Positions 17,580 through 64,000 of a stretch of 64,000 nucleotides of DNA are shown here, piece by piece. The notes beneath the pieces were generated by a model. It was not told the DNA's origin. It made no database searches and was given only the letters and a program-made list of their open reading frames with translations. The translations under genes and the position numbers were made by a program. The DNA comes from Candidatus Kuenenia hertensis (GTDB lineage: Bacteria; Planctomycetota; Brocadiia; Brocadiales; Brocadiaceae). The first letter of the stretch is position 1; the number at the start of each line of letters is the position of its first letter. Location: contig SOET01000002.1 in NCBI GenBank assembly GCA_021646465.1, forward strand, positions 1 through 64,000, given 5' to 3'.

Positions 17580-19067
17580 ATGAACATTTCCATAGTACTG
17601 CGTACGGTCTCTAACCTTGCTTTAATGCTTGCCGCAATTTTCTCGATTCCGCTTGGTATTGCGTTATTTTATAAAAACTATGATACATTGTGGGCCTTTA
17701 TCCTTGCAATAGTTCTTTCGGGTACTCTGGGAGGAGTCAATAGGTTCTTCTTTAAGAAAAAAAATGAAGTAGAAATTGGCAATAGAGAAGGTATTGCCAT
17801 TGTGACGTTCAGTTGGCTCATTTGTATATTTCTTGGCGCATTTCCATATTGGTATTCAGGTATATGCCCAACATATACTGATGCGGTATTTGAGACAACA
17901 AGTGGTTTTACCACGACAGGCTCTTCAATTCTTACCAATGTGGAAATATTGCCTGAAAGTATTCTTTTCTGGCGTGCATTTACAAATTGGCTTGGCGGGA
18001 TGGGAATTATTGTTGTTTTCGTAGCATTGCTTCCTGCTATGGGCGTCAGTGGGTATCAGCTTTTTATTGCAGAAGTAAGTGGGCCTACGATAGGTAAATT
18101 GAAGCCACGAATTGCTGAAACGGCAAAGGCGCTGTGGATCATTTATCTTGTTTTTACGGCAACATTAATTTTGTTATACTTTTTGGGTGGAATGTCTTTT
18201 TTTGACGCCATTTGCCATTCCTTTGCCACGGTTTCAACAGGGGGATTTTCCACAAAAAACACAAGCATCGCATATTTTGATAATCTTTATATAGAAATTG
18301 TTGCCGCAATATTTATGTTTATTTGTGGCTGTAATTTTTCACTTTATTATCAGTCTTTTCAATTAAATTTCAGGAAAATACTGAAAAATTCAGAACTTCG
18401 CTTTTTTGCGGGATTAAACCTGATCGTTATTGTCTTTGTAGCAATACTTTTATTTAGTAGTCAACCTCACAGTTTGAGTAATGAAATTCACAATGATTAT
18501 TACCAAAATTTTGGATATTCCATCAGACGGTCTTTCTTCCAGGTAGTTGCAATATGCACGGGAACGGGTTTGTCAACGGCAGATTTTGACATATGGCCGG
18601 AAATATGCCGGTTTTTATTAATCTTGTTAATGTTTATTGGTGCGTGTGCAGGTTCTACAGGCGGTGGCATAAAAAGTGTACGGATATTGATATTACTCAA
18701 ATCAAGCATACGGGAAGTTATGCGTGTATTAAGGCCACGAATGGTAAAACACGTAAAAATTAATGGTGAATCGGTACCAGAAGAAATTGTTACCGAGATA
18801 TCAGTATTTTTCGTAGTGTACTTAGGATTTTTTGGTGTTTGTTCGCTGGCCTTGATGGCAACGGGCCTTGATATGGTTACTGCATTTTCTTCTGTATGTA
18901 CCTGCATGGCCAATTGTGGTCCTGGCCTCGCTAAAGTTGGCCCAACACTTAACTTCAGCGAGATTTCTTATTTCTGCAAATGGATTTTAAGTTTTTGCAT
19001 GCTCCTTGGGAGGTTGGAAATTTATAGTTTTCTGCTTATATTTCTACCTGTAACGTGGAAAAGGTAG
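17580..19067 (+). CDS. trkH: TrkH-family potassium channel subunit
   Basis: The 495-residue membrane protein carries about ten to twelve hydrophobic segments and the four pore-loop motifs typical of SKT-family transporters (for example ETTSGFTTTGSSIL, FATVSTGGFSTKN, VAICTGTGLSTADF, SVCTCMANCGPGL). It forms the K+-conducting pore in the inner membrane with TrkA as cytoplasmic regulator. It is the second gene of the trkA-trkH pair. Its stop at 19067 lies only 7 nt before the -35 element of the displaced tRNA-Val promoter and 47 nt before the left prophage end. Confidence 0.95.
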   Translation: MNISIVLRTVSNLALMLAAIFSIPLGIALFYKNYDTLWAFILAIVLSGTLGGVNRFFFKKKNEVEIGNREGIAIVTFSWLICIFLGAFPYWYSGICPTYTDAVFETTSGFTTTGSSILTNVEILPESILFWRAFTNWLGGMGIIVVFVALLPAMGVSGYQLFIAEVSGPTIGKLKPRIAETAKALWIIYLVFTATLILLYFLGGMSFFDAICHSFATVSTGGFSTKNTSIAYFDNLYIEIVAAIFMFICGCNFSLYYQSFQLNFRKILKNSELRFFAGLNLIVIVFVAILLFSSQPHSLSNEIHNDYYQNFGYSIRRSFFQVVAICTGTGLSTADFDIWPEICRFLLILLMFIGACAGSTGGGIKSVRILILLKSSIREVMRVLRPRMVKHVKINGESVPEEIVTEISVFFVVYLGFFGVCSLALMATGLDMVTAFSSVCTCMANCGPGLAKVGPTLNFSEISYFCKWILSFCMLLGRLEIYSFLLIFLPVTWKR

Positions 19068-19074
19068 AATTTAG

Positions 19075-19103
19075 TTGACTCATTAAACATGAAATGATAT
19101 ATA
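19075..19103 (+). promoter_or_regulatory. Displaced native promoter of the tRNA-Val gene
   Basis: TTGACT (19075-19080) and TATATA (19098-19103) are separated by exactly 17 bp, a near-consensus sigma-70 promoter. It stands 11 nt before the 19-bp fragment of the tRNA-Val 5' end. It is best explained as the original host promoter of the tRNA gene, cut off from it by the prophage. In the lysogen it would transcribe the tRNA fragment and then the integrase gene. Confidence 0.7.
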
Positions 19104-19114
19104 TAAATTCTTAA

Positions 19115-19133
19115 GGGCGATTAGCTCAATTGG
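19115..19133 (+). other. attL core: copy of the tRNA-Val 5' end
   Basis: The 19 bases GGGCGATTAGCTCAATTGG are identical to nucleotides 1-19 of the intact tRNA-Val at 62980. Beyond base 19 the match ends and phage DNA begins. This is a tRNA fragment and not a working tRNA gene. The left flank, with a good promoter, is host DNA after trkH. Confidence 0.85.
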
Positions 19134-19175
19134 AGTGAATAAGTGTGTATACAAGCAATACTTAGCAGTGAATAA
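19134..19175 (+). repeat. Direct 9-bp repeat inside attL, candidate integrase arm sites
   Basis: AGTGAATAA occurs at 19134-19142, directly at the core edge, and again at 19167-19175, 33 bp (about three helix turns) later. Tyrosine integrases of lambda type bind paired arm-type repeats beside the core, so this is a candidate; the assignment is inference. Confidence 0.35.
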
Positions 19176-19233
19176 AGCGGCATGTATGGCGAATTGTCTG
19201 AAAAAGAAGGTTGAAATTGCCCTTAACGAGTAA
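19134..19233 (+). other. Detached 3' end of the XRE regulator gene
   Basis: From the core edge an open frame continues for 32 codons (19135-19230) to a TAA at 19231-19233. It is in the same frame as the XRE regulator gene whose front part lies at the other prophage end (62706-62998). Joining the two cores on paper gives a 130-residue protein with a lysine-rich tail ending KKKVEIALNE. In the integrated state this stretch has no start codon of its own and is separated from its gene. The TAA lies 5 nt before the integrase TTG start, so regulator and integrase would be adjacent genes in the circular phage. Confidence 0.75.
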
Positions 19234-19238
19234 GTATT

Positions 19239-20318
19239 TTGACAAGGAATAACCGTACAAAAAAAGGCCGTAATCCCTACGGACTTAAGCTGCGGGGGAG
19301 CGTGTGGAATTATGATTTCCATGTACGCAAGAGGAGGTATAGGGGTACTACGCACACGCATGATTATGAGCTTGCCAAACTCTATGCCGCAAAGAAATAC
19401 AAAGAATCCTACCTTGATCAAACCGATATTCAGAAATTAACCCATGAGGTTAATGTTTCTGATTTTATCAAGCGTCACATACTTGCATTGCAAGCGGAGT
19501 ATTCTTCGCACTGGACGTATTCAAGCGAATTGACTCTTAATGAGTTTAGCGAGTTCCTCAAGTCTCAGGGTGTTGACGTCCTTTCAAAGATTTCCGTTGA
19601 GGTTCTTGAATCGTTCAAGATCGAACAATTAAACCGTGTGAAAAAGATTACGGTTAAGAATAAGTTTAAGATTATCAAGGCATTTCTTAATCGTGCTATC
19701 AAATACGGCTACCTTACCAAAAATCCGGCCAGACAGATTGTGATTAACGGTATCCATCAGAATAAGACACGGTTTTTTTCAAAAGAGGAAATTGAGAAGA
19801 TTTTTACTGCTTTAGACCTTCAGGAGCATAAACGTTTCGCTTATATGAAGAATTTTCTTATGGTCGCACTTTATACCGGCATGCGGCGCGGGGAATTGAC
19901 GCATCTCTGCATCGAGGATGCTGACCTGGAGAGGAAGGTTATTTGCGTGCGTAATAAGAACGGATTCAGCACGAAGAGCCGCAAGGAACGTGTGATCCCG
20001 ATTCATGATAAGCTGGTTCCGGTCTTTAAGGGTATTAAGAAGGAACGCCAGCAGGGGTATTGTTTCCTGCATTTGGGGAAAAAATATAATGACAAGACTG
20101 CCACGAAGAATTTTGTTATTCTCTGCGAAAGATCAGGAATTGAAAACGCGGGGATCCACACGCTGCGGCATACGTTCGCATCGTATTTGATCATGGCCGG
20201 TGTTTCTATGCGGATGGTTGCGGAATATTTGGGACATAGCACGGCGCGGGTGACAGAACTCTACTCGCATGTCTCGGAGGAGAAGAAGAACGGGGAGATT
20301 CAGCGGTTGGGGTTTTAA
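19239..20318 (+). CDS. int: Phage tyrosine integrase
   Basis: The 359-residue site-specific recombinase has an N-terminal arm-binding-like part (residues 1-60), a core-binding SAM-like domain (~70-165) and a catalytic domain with the expected residues: Arg216 (TGMRRGEL), HTLRH with His307/Arg310, His333 (LGHS) and the nucleophile Tyr342 (LYSHV). A TTG at 19239 is the only reasonable start; an in-frame stop lies upstream at 19224. It lies directly inside the left attachment site, as expected for the integrase of this prophage. In the lysogen it would be read from the stranded tRNA promoter, in the phage circle behind the XRE regulator. Confidence 0.93.
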   Translation: MTRNNRTKKGRNPYGLKLRGSVWNYDFHVRKRRYRGTTHTHDYELAKLYAAKKYKESYLDQTDIQKLTHEVNVSDFIKRHILALQAEYSSHWTYSSELTLNEFSEFLKSQGVDVLSKISVEVLESFKIEQLNRVKKITVKNKFKIIKAFLNRAIKYGYLTKNPARQIVINGIHQNKTRFFSKEEIEKIFTALDLQEHKRFAYMKNFLMVALYTGMRRGELTHLCIEDADLERKVICVRNKNGFSTKSRKERVIPIHDKLVPVFKGIKKERQQGYCFLHLGKKYNDKTATKNFVILCERSGIENAGIHTLRHTFASYLIMAGVSMRMVAEYLGHSTARVTELYSHVSEEKKNGEIQRLGF

Positions 20319-62315: not shown

Positions 62316-62513
62316 TTAGTTAGATATTCTAATATCTGACAAAGCTTTTCGGATTACTTCAACGTCTGCAAGGGTGTAGATTCTCCGTTTGCCGACCTGA
62401 TCAAACTGATCTCTTTGAAGCCGTCCGCTTTGGAATAGATATTCAAGGCGATCCCTTTTGATTTTGAGAATCCGCAAAATATCAGAAGTGGAAAGCAATT
62501 TTTTTTTGTCCAT
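62316..62513 (-). CDS. AlpA/MerR-like helix-turn-helix protein, probable excisionase or early regulator
   Basis: The 65-residue protein is a compact winged-helix DNA-binding domain: LLSTSDILRILKIKRDRLEYLFQSGRL, then QVGKRRIYTLADVEVIRKAL. AlpA- and MerR-type small proteins of this size often act as phage excisionases or early regulators. It is the first gene of the leftward operon and divergent from the XRE regulator, with an operator-like region between. Which role it has cannot be decided from sequence. Confidence 0.75.
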   Translation of the reverse strand: MDKKKLLSTSDILRILKIKRDRLEYLFQSGRLQRDQFDQVGKRRIYTLADVEVIRKALSDIRISN

Positions 62514-62597: not shown

Positions 62598-62632
62598 AAA
62601 GAACAACGCAAAACTTGCGGTAATATAAAGAA

Positions 62633-62676
62633 TATTTTTACTTTAGTCAAATAATTTTGTGACTAAAGTAAAAATA
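62633..62676. promoter_or_regulatory. Large perfect inverted repeat upstream of the XRE regulator
   Basis: The arms 62633-62649 and 62660-62676 are perfect 17-bp complements (TATTTTTACTTTAGTCA) with a 10-bp spacer. The repeat lies 30 nt before the XRE regulator start. It could be the operator for autoregulation or form a hairpin at the 5' end of the messenger. Confidence 0.65.
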
Positions 62677-62705
62677 AGTTGCAATGCGTTATGGAGGACA
62701 ATGTT

Positions 62706-63002
62706 ATGTATCTTAAAAAAAATACACTAGGCATGAAAATCAGACAACTCAGAAAGGAACTGGGATTAAATCAGGATGAATTTGCCCGCAAACTTAGTGA
62801 TTATGGGATAGAGATAACGCATTCTGGTATTAGTAGGATTGAAAGCGGAGACCATTTCCCTCATATAGAAACCCTACTTGCCATATGCATGTTATGCGGT
62901 TTAACTCCAAACGAGATGCTGGATTACGATTGTGAAAAAATACAGCACAAACAGGCATTATACAATTTAGGGGATCACGGGGCGATTAGCTCAATTGGCT
63001 AG
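62706..63002 (+). CDS. XRE-family phage regulator, truncated by integration at attR
   Basis: From the ATG at 62706, with GGAGG 8 nt before it, the integrated form has 98 residues. Residues ~10-65 form an XRE helix-turn-helix (KIRQLRKELGLNQDEFARKL, then SGISRIESG). The gene runs into the attachment core, and its last codons (GAISSIG) and the TAG stop are tRNA-Val nucleotides. In the circular phage the same frame would continue through attP for 32 further codons (19135-19233), giving 130 residues ending 5 nt before int. It is the likely repressor. A TTG at 62679 is a weaker start (107 residues). Confidence 0.85.
   Translation: MYLKKNTLGMKIRQLRKELGLNQDEFARKLSDYGIEITHSGISRIESGDHFPHIETLLAICMLCGLTPNEMLDYDCEKIQHKQALYNLGDHGAISSIG
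62980..62998 (+). other. attR core inside tRNA-Val and the XRE regulator gene
   Basis: This is the second copy of GGGCGATTAGCTCAATTGG. It forms at the same time nucleotides 1-19 of the tRNA and codons of the XRE regulator end. DNA to the left is phage, DNA to the right is host. Confidence 0.85.
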
Positions 63003-63056: not shown

Positions 63057-63099
63057 TTCTAATTCCTGTAAATTGAAAGACTTATAAATTGTTGCAATC

Positions 63100-64000
63100 T
63101 CATGATACATGTCTGTTTTCCCTTACTGTAGTCAAATTGTAGTCAACTTTTTCTAAAACCTCAATTCCTTCCCTTAAACTTTCCGGGCAATGGTGTGCAT
63201 AACGTTGCGTCATGGTAATATTCATGTGGCCTAACAGCTTCGATATTTTGTAAATATCAATACCCCTTTGTGCCAAACGTGTCGCAAAGGTATGCCTCAA
63301 GTCGTGGAAATGAAAATCCTGAATCTCAGCCTTTTCCAAGGCAGTATTAAAAGCCCTTCTCAGATTGTGGCGGTCAATCTTGTTTATTGTGCTACTCAGA
63401 AAAACGAGATCGCTTTTCAGGTTCCTAACCTTTGCCTTTTCCTGTAGAATTTCAAAGGCAATCTGCGTTAAAGGGATTGTTCTTGGTTTTCCGTTCTTTG
63501 TCTCTTGAATTATAATAGTCCAGTTGAAAAGGTTTACGCGCCCCCATTGAAGGGAAAGCAGTTCGTCTTGCCGTAAACCTGTGTGCAAGGCAAAGAGGAT
63601 AATTTCTTTCAGCCATTGCGGCGAATTATCAAGCAGCCTTTTTTCCTCGTCATAGGTCAACCAGCGATCCCGCCCACGATTCTCTTTTTCCCGTGATACT
63701 TTTAAGACGGGATTCTCTTTAACCCATTCCCATTCCTTACTCGCAAGACTGAAGGCCTTTGAAAGCATTGACAAACTCCTGTTGATGGAAGGCGCCCCAC
63801 CGCCTTTTTCCTTTCTTGCTTGTTTGTATTCGTTAATCTTTCCAGCGGTTATTTTAGATAGCGCCAACTCGCCAAAAAAATCAGAAAGATGCTTTAACGA
63901 TACCTTGTAAAGAGACCTCATATTCCCGGATACCTTCGGAGCATGTTCTTTCATAAACTTTTCCATCATGTCCTTGAAGGTCTTGTTTTGACCAACCGGT
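63100..64000 (-). CDS. Second tyrosine recombinase/integrase, 5' end beyond the window
   Basis: The frame is open to the right edge, so the start is outside; the visible part is about 300 residues. It has a core-binding domain (YKVSLKHLSDFFGELALSKITAGKINEYKQ) and the catalytic set: Arg in TGLRQDELL, HDLRHTFATRL, LGHM and the tyrosine in TQRYAHH. It points at the 3' end of tRNA-Val, 43 nt away, outside the phage attachment repeat. That is the typical place of an integrase of a different element inserted at the tRNA 3' end. Confidence 0.9.
   Translation of the reverse strand, partial: PVGQNKTFKDMMEKFMKEHAPKVSGNMRSLYKVSLKHLSDFFGELALSKITAGKINEYKQARKEKGGGAPSINRSLSMLSKAFSLASKEWEWVKENPVLKVSREKENRGRDRWLTYDEEKRLLDNSPQWLKEIILFALHTGLRQDELLSLQWGRVNLFNWTIIIQETKNGKPRTIPLTQIAFEILQEKAKVRNLKSDLVFLSSTINKIDRHNLRRAFNTALEKAEIQDFHFHDLRHTFATRLAQRGIDIYKISKLLGHMNITMTQRYAHHCPESLREGIEVLEKVDYNLTTVRENRHVS

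Follow-up and report, generated by a model that had tools for sequence, protein, structure and literature searches.

When a temperate phage integrates into the 5' end of a tRNA gene, which promoter is left to serve the tRNA, and which one serves the integrase? The question is raised by a tailed prophage of 43.9 kb (19115-62979) located within the 5' end of the tRNA-Val(UAC) gene in the window, i.e., the whole 64,000-nt stretch of DNA analysed here. Profile matches show that genes for the terminase, portal, head proteins, integrase and repressor are present and open, and the prophage also carries genes for a head protease, a primase and a weakly matched excisionase. Features of both junctions are listed in Table 1.

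Table 1. Features at the two ends of the prophage and in its flanks (coordinates in the window unless a contig is named).
Feature	Position	Strand	Evidence or remark
Host trkH, left flank of the integration site	17580..19067	+	Pfam TrkH 3.5e-71; same pre-tRNA neighbour in G019 and G020
Native host tRNA-Val promoter, TTGACT-17-TATATA, now upstream of int	19075..19103	+	Conserved at tRNA-Val in 27/27 relatives
attL core, tRNA-Val nt 1-19, remaining with the host promoter	19115..19133	+	Sequence match
12-nt inverted repeat, TTAAGGGCGATT / AATTGCCCTTAA	19111-19122 / 19215-19226	+	Could mask the start of int in a transcript from attL
Direct repeat AGTGAATAA, two copies, candidate integrase arm-type sites	19134-19142, 19167-19175	+	Putative function
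Repressor extension of the phage form	19134..19233	+	In frame once 62998 is joined to 19134
Tyrosine integrase gene int, TTG start	19239..20318	+	phrog_1 5e-50; Pfam Phage_integrase 7e-31
Small excisionase-like gene, first in the leftward operon	62316..62513	-	Weak match to phrog_4691 excisionase (E=6.5e-4)
Leftward promoter TTGACT-17-TATATT, predicted to be early lytic	62622..62650	-	10.3 bits, top score of the region
Palindrome with 22-nt arms (near-perfect, 91%) across both divergent promoters; candidate operator of the repressor	62633..62676	.	Sequence
Candidate repressor promoter TTGTGA-17-TGCAAT	62657..62685	+	6.5 bits (weak), the top-scoring + strand site upstream of the gene
XRE-type repressor, 98-aa lysogen form with its stop in the tRNA	62706..63002	+	Profile matches and reading frame
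attR core, tRNA 5' end from the phage	62980..62998	+	Sequence
Intact tRNA-Val(UAC), sole copy found in the genome	62980..63056	+	tRNA searches
Integrase gene belonging to a second element, which is about 15.6 kb long and entered the 3' half of this tRNA	63100..63969	-	Far end at C25:78687-78736

At the left junction, a -35 box (TTGACT, 19075-19080), a 17-nt spacer and a -10 box (TATATA, 19098-19103) are followed 11 nt further on by a 19-bp tRNA fragment, GGGCGATTAGCTCAATTGG; the promoter described there by a sequence-only reading of this DNA is in place. The same 19 bp form the 5' start of the intact tRNA-Val(UAC), and the flanking bases of the two copies are unlike on either side. Against a sigma-70 matrix (PWM), the promoter scores a modest 7.8 bits, a value reached by 4.7% of random windows. 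It is nonetheless more than a chance match because it is conserved: we searched for tRNA-Val in 33 genomes of the host family and compared the promoter in 27 relatives, and TTGA[CT]TC-17-TATA[ACT][TA] was found 11-26 nt before tRNA-Val in every one of them. A member of the same genus without an insert (G019) has the gene order trkH-promoter-tRNA-Val-tRNA-Asp, which represents the empty site. Identity of the flanks to this genome is 72-84%, with 83% in the left flank up to the core and 72-84% in the DNA past the second element. Judged by this conservation, the promoter now facing int is the native host tRNA-Val promoter, and both the relatives and the empty site agree with the earlier claim to that effect. 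The companion claim, that the intact tRNA has lost its native promoter, is borne out as well, since the conserved motif is missing from the 300 nt preceding 62980. Promoter and tRNA are 43.9 kb apart in this genome (G000), the only one among the genomes searched in which a 5' insertion of this phage in tRNA-Val was seen.

At the right junction, the repressor gene runs into the tRNA, and its TAG stop occupies tRNA positions 21-23 in the D-arm. The tRNA had been said to lie inside the 3' end of the repressor gene; the overlap is real but partial, comprising the first 23 nt of the tRNA only (62980-63002). Joining 62998 to 19134, as in excision, gives a predicted attP that reads ...AISSIGVNKCVY... 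and encodes ...SSIGVNKC.... Across this join the repressor frame continues for another 32 residues to a TAA at 19231, and the TTG start of int follows this displaced stop after 5 nt. The repressor is thus predicted to have 130 aa in the attP (phage) form versus 98 aa in the attR (lysogen) form, and int is not split by integration (intact, 359 aa). The chance of the extension frame staying open is 4-22%; an open frame alone is modest evidence, strengthened by the orientation, by the contact of the stop with the int start and by a layout like that of phage BPs. On the predicted join, attP falls within the repressor gene, towards its 3' end. Integration should therefore cut the repressor short and make int and the tRNA trade promoters.

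What the loss of the native promoter means for the cell depends on the tRNA. As had been suggested, we looked for other tRNA-Val genes reading GUA, and a census based on tRNA searches and selected stretches of the draft genome (89 contigs) showed none among 44 tRNA genes; the other tRNA-Val has the anticodon GAC, and the draft state leaves a small chance of a hidden copy. Given this single copy, and because 56% of the valine codons used by host genes on the flanks are GUA or GUG, the tRNA-Val(UAC) gene is very likely essential. From the gene arrangement, it is plausible that in the lysogen this tRNA is made via repressor transcription. Alternatively, the phage may provide a tRNA promoter of its own in the 3' end of the repressor gene, with a -10-like TACAAT at 62961-62966 and little or no -35 box, in which case the exchange would have no regulatory effect on the tRNA. 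TACAAT is a 5/6 match and ends 13 nt before the tRNA, approximately the native distance (native -10 boxes mostly lie at 12-14 nt), and several real tRNA genes of this genome also have no recognisable -35 box. However, no -35 box is found at 15-19 nt, TACAAT lies within a coding stretch where the match may be due to chance, and the best sigma-70 score in the 70 nt before 62980 (4.6 bits, matched by 43% of random windows) is near the background median. The low score is itself no proof that a promoter is absent, since the matrix fails to separate real tRNA genes from background here, with many of them scoring likewise (3.9 bits for the other tRNA-Val). Overall, a phage-borne tRNA promoter appears unlikely to us, though it deserves to be kept in mind.

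If the tRNA is instead read from the repressor promoter, its leader would be long. In another genome of the genus (G020, one contig), 270 bp of inserted non-phage DNA separate tRNA-Val from its native promoter, suggesting that a long leader before the tRNA is perhaps tolerable, and the 295 nt that separate the candidate repressor promoter from the tRNA here are close to that length. The insert in G020 (L075, G020:C1:1416652-1417058) is repeat-like and rich in ACGAAATACGAAA. G020 was considered as a second case of a displaced promoter and dropped, as nothing ties the insert to the phage studied here and the promoter continues to point at the tRNA.

Transcription of int from the host tRNA promoter in the lysogen is likewise plausible from the layout, and a sequence scan detected no terminator on the + strand between 19103 and int. 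The displaced promoter could also be an inert by-product that yields no Int, either through an early transcript end or through a 12-nt helix that masks the int start. The inverted repeat at 19111-19122 and 19215-19226 would provide such a helix (12 pairs are matched in 1% of shuffles), and ICEKp1 has attenuating stem-loops at the same place (PMC13023037). Against this, the z-score of the whole fold is only -1.25, and the scan noted above detected no terminator on the + strand between promoter and int. We consider it rather improbable that the promoter is silent with respect to Int. A milder effect is conceivable, in that the repeat, which resembles an acceptor-stem mimic of the tRNA, could damp int translation in the integrated state only. 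Its first arm consists of the tRNA remnant and 4 host bases, and the partner arm lies just upstream of the int start. The direct repeat AGTGAATAA has only two copies within the window, found directly after the attL core.

A steady supply of Int need not lead to excision. The excisionase-like gene is the first on the leftward operon and would therefore be repressed in the lysogen, and, by analogy with known Int/Xis systems, constant Int alone would not excise the prophage. Excision would require the excisionase of this repressed operon, and steady Int would mainly maintain integration. The sequence-only reading had gone further and proposed a form of addiction that ties prophage maintenance to an essential tRNA; the tRNA would then depend on the phage, prophage loss would kill the cell and maintenance would be selected. 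Indeed, there is a single tRNA of this kind, and the phage provides both its 5' end and the DNA upstream of it. However, precise excision joins 19115-19133 to 62999 onward, i.e., the native arrangement of phage-free relatives. Addiction does not follow because excision, by sequence, reunites the native promoter with the tRNA, and clean loss would cost nothing; we regard this part of the proposal as very improbable. The tRNA would be lost only upon damage to the right end. Hence, the penalty is predicted to fall on right-end decay or deletion while the prophage is integrated, making the arrangement a lock against decay, not against curing. As for unrelated repeats or an assembly error in place of integration, the genome is a draft, but a single contig holds both junctions, the integrase adjoins attL and the repressor adjoins attR, the phage gene set is present and G019 has the empty site with both flanks, leaving this explanation a negligible chance.

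When the repressor and int were searched for relatives, viral contigs returned none, genome contigs one integrase at 24% identity, and phage records only integrases of 22-30% identity and HTH matches. The best int relatives in the family are 38-44% identical, and the tRNAs adjoining them, where there are any, are intact tRNA-Gln, tRNA-Gly and tRNA-Leu. Across viral contigs, genome contigs, phage records and family genomes, we found no relative of repressor plus int arranged in this way, and the whole case therefore rests on one prophage. The exact attP DNA was absent from the viral contigs searched, in which the 19-mer alone matched only intact tRNAs of other phages. At two loci of the family (L079 and L080, in G016 and G018), integrases 40% identical to int adjoin tRNA-Gly(CCC) near a Zot-like ATPase gene recognised by eye, suggesting that these elements may be integrated filamentous phages.

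The same tRNA gene is also occupied on its 3' side. At C25:78687-78736, 50 bp repeat the 3' portion of the tRNA without a mismatch, and the second element spans 63057-64000 and contig C25 to 78736 (L035, 1-14736). By eye, it also encodes primase-like, sigma-like and Bro-N-like proteins and two more tyrosine recombinases. The tRNA-Val(UAC) gene is thereby bordered by mobile DNA on both sides, with host DNA confined to its middle. Fragments of the tRNA-Val 3' part were also found in four other relatives (G004, G007, G009 and G018), indicating that the 3' side of this tRNA is a recurrent integration site.

Several of these traits have counterparts in known systems. In BPs-type integration-dependent immunity, the repressor is truncated by integration (PMC4557955, PMC9934374). 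The prophage resembles those phages in that its predicted attP falls near the 3' end of the repressor gene and integration shortens the repressor (Broussard 2013; PMC4557955), with repressor and int codirectional, int directly after the repressor, and a divergent early lytic promoter (PMC4557955). The ssrA-like tag that is defining there is missing here, as the phage-form repressor ends in KKKVEIALNE, with no AA end (PMC4557955). Mycobacteriophages at tRNA sites typically use a core in the tRNA 3' half, and the promoter stays where it is (PMC10865867). In the present prophage, the core coincides with the 5' end of the tRNA, and it is this difference that leads to the exchange of promoters. Islands with a 5' tDNA fragment are a minority in Islander (159 of 3,919 islands; PMC4383910). 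They share with our case a displaced 5' tRNA fragment and an intact tRNA at the opposite end, although the subsites reported are the anticodon loop, the T loop and the T/acceptor junction, whereas the core here covers tRNA positions 1-19, from the acceptor 5' strand to the D-loop (PMC4383910).

The closest parallel for the tRNA is archaeal, namely pTN3 of Thermococcus, in which the rebuilt tRNA-Leu is cut off from its promoter (PMC5495485, PMC8371274). In both cases attB is the 5' portion of a tRNA, and the rebuilt tRNA, off its native promoter, is transcribed (putatively so here) together with a gene of the element; in pTN3-like systems the tRNA promoter may also drive part of int, comparable to int here (PMC5495485, PMC8371274). 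In contrast to the suicidal integration of pTN3, with a split int and an att site of 41 bp, int remains whole in this prophage and the repressor is cut instead. Bacterial tRNAs keep their own promoter with very few exceptions, and cases of the pTN3 type are seldom met in bacteria (PMC8371274). For int, the parallel is ICEKp1, which uses the tRNA-Asn promoter when integrated (PMC13023037). In ICEKp1, ICEclc and the Yersinia HPI, as predicted here, the integrated int is on the host tRNA promoter, and in the circular form its promoter comes from the other end of the element (PMC13023037). The tRNA keeps its promoter in those elements, whereas here it would take over the former promoter of int. 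Phages with tRNA-dependent lysogeny also use an essential, single-copy tRNA as their site, and the lysogen relies on phage DNA for that tRNA (PMC10865867). There, the host tRNA is broken and replaced by a separate phage tRNA, while in this prophage attR restores the host tRNA; no separate phage-encoded tRNA of the disrupted isotype was found, the sole tRNA of the window being the rebuilt host gene. The arrangement had been put forward as undescribed for this type of immunity switch, a claim that needs narrowing. Separation of a tRNA from its promoter (pTN3) and expression of int from a tRNA promoter (ICEKp1) are both known, but for repressor truncation together with tRNA promoter exchange we found no precedent in the open papers searched, and their combination in a single insertion looks new.

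Taken as a whole, we consider a model probable in which a phage with attP in its repressor gene integrates at a tRNA 5' end, with a promoter swap, repressor truncation and an either-or transcript. The temperate phage would integrate, by means of its tyrosine recombinase, within nucleotides 1-19 of the single host tRNA-Val(UAC) gene. As the sequence shows, the left end keeps the host promoter and 19 tRNA nucleotides before int, and at the right end the phage supplies tRNA nucleotides 1-19, rebuilding the tRNA behind the repressor. The repressor thereby switches from a predicted phage form of 130 residues, with int directly after it, to a 98-residue form whose TAG stop lies within the D-arm of the tRNA. 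Before integration, the repressor promoter would drive the long repressor and int; once in the lysogen, it would drive the short repressor and then the tRNA, freed by RNase P (the gene for its RNA is present in the genome), and the host tRNA promoter would read through the tRNA remnant into int. Cleavage by RNase P at 62979/62980 would strip the final codons and the stop from the repressor, leaving a non-stop message. Since the cut lies upstream of the repressor stop, each transcript would yield either the tRNA or a complete repressor mRNA, never both. Lysogeny might then sense tRNA processing or the state of translation, with tRNA maturation giving a non-stop repressor mRNA, a product open to tmRNA tagging and less repressor. 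We advance this extension tentatively and hold it to be doubtful; if true, a circuit sensing tRNA processing would have been built by integration alone, through promoter exchange.

By choice of site, one recombination step would rewire two promoters, placing int on a housekeeping promoter and an essential tRNA on an immunity promoter, and would shorten the repressor as well. If transcription follows the anatomy, integration-dependent immunity, described so far in phages of actinobacteria in the literature found, would be joined with the int promoter switching of ICEs in another host group. The locus would then also offer a simple test of how well a cell tolerates having an essential tRNA expressed as part of a prophage operon. 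The rarity of 5' tRNA sites may be explained in the same way, as a tRNA used at its 5' end has to survive on the promoter of the element.
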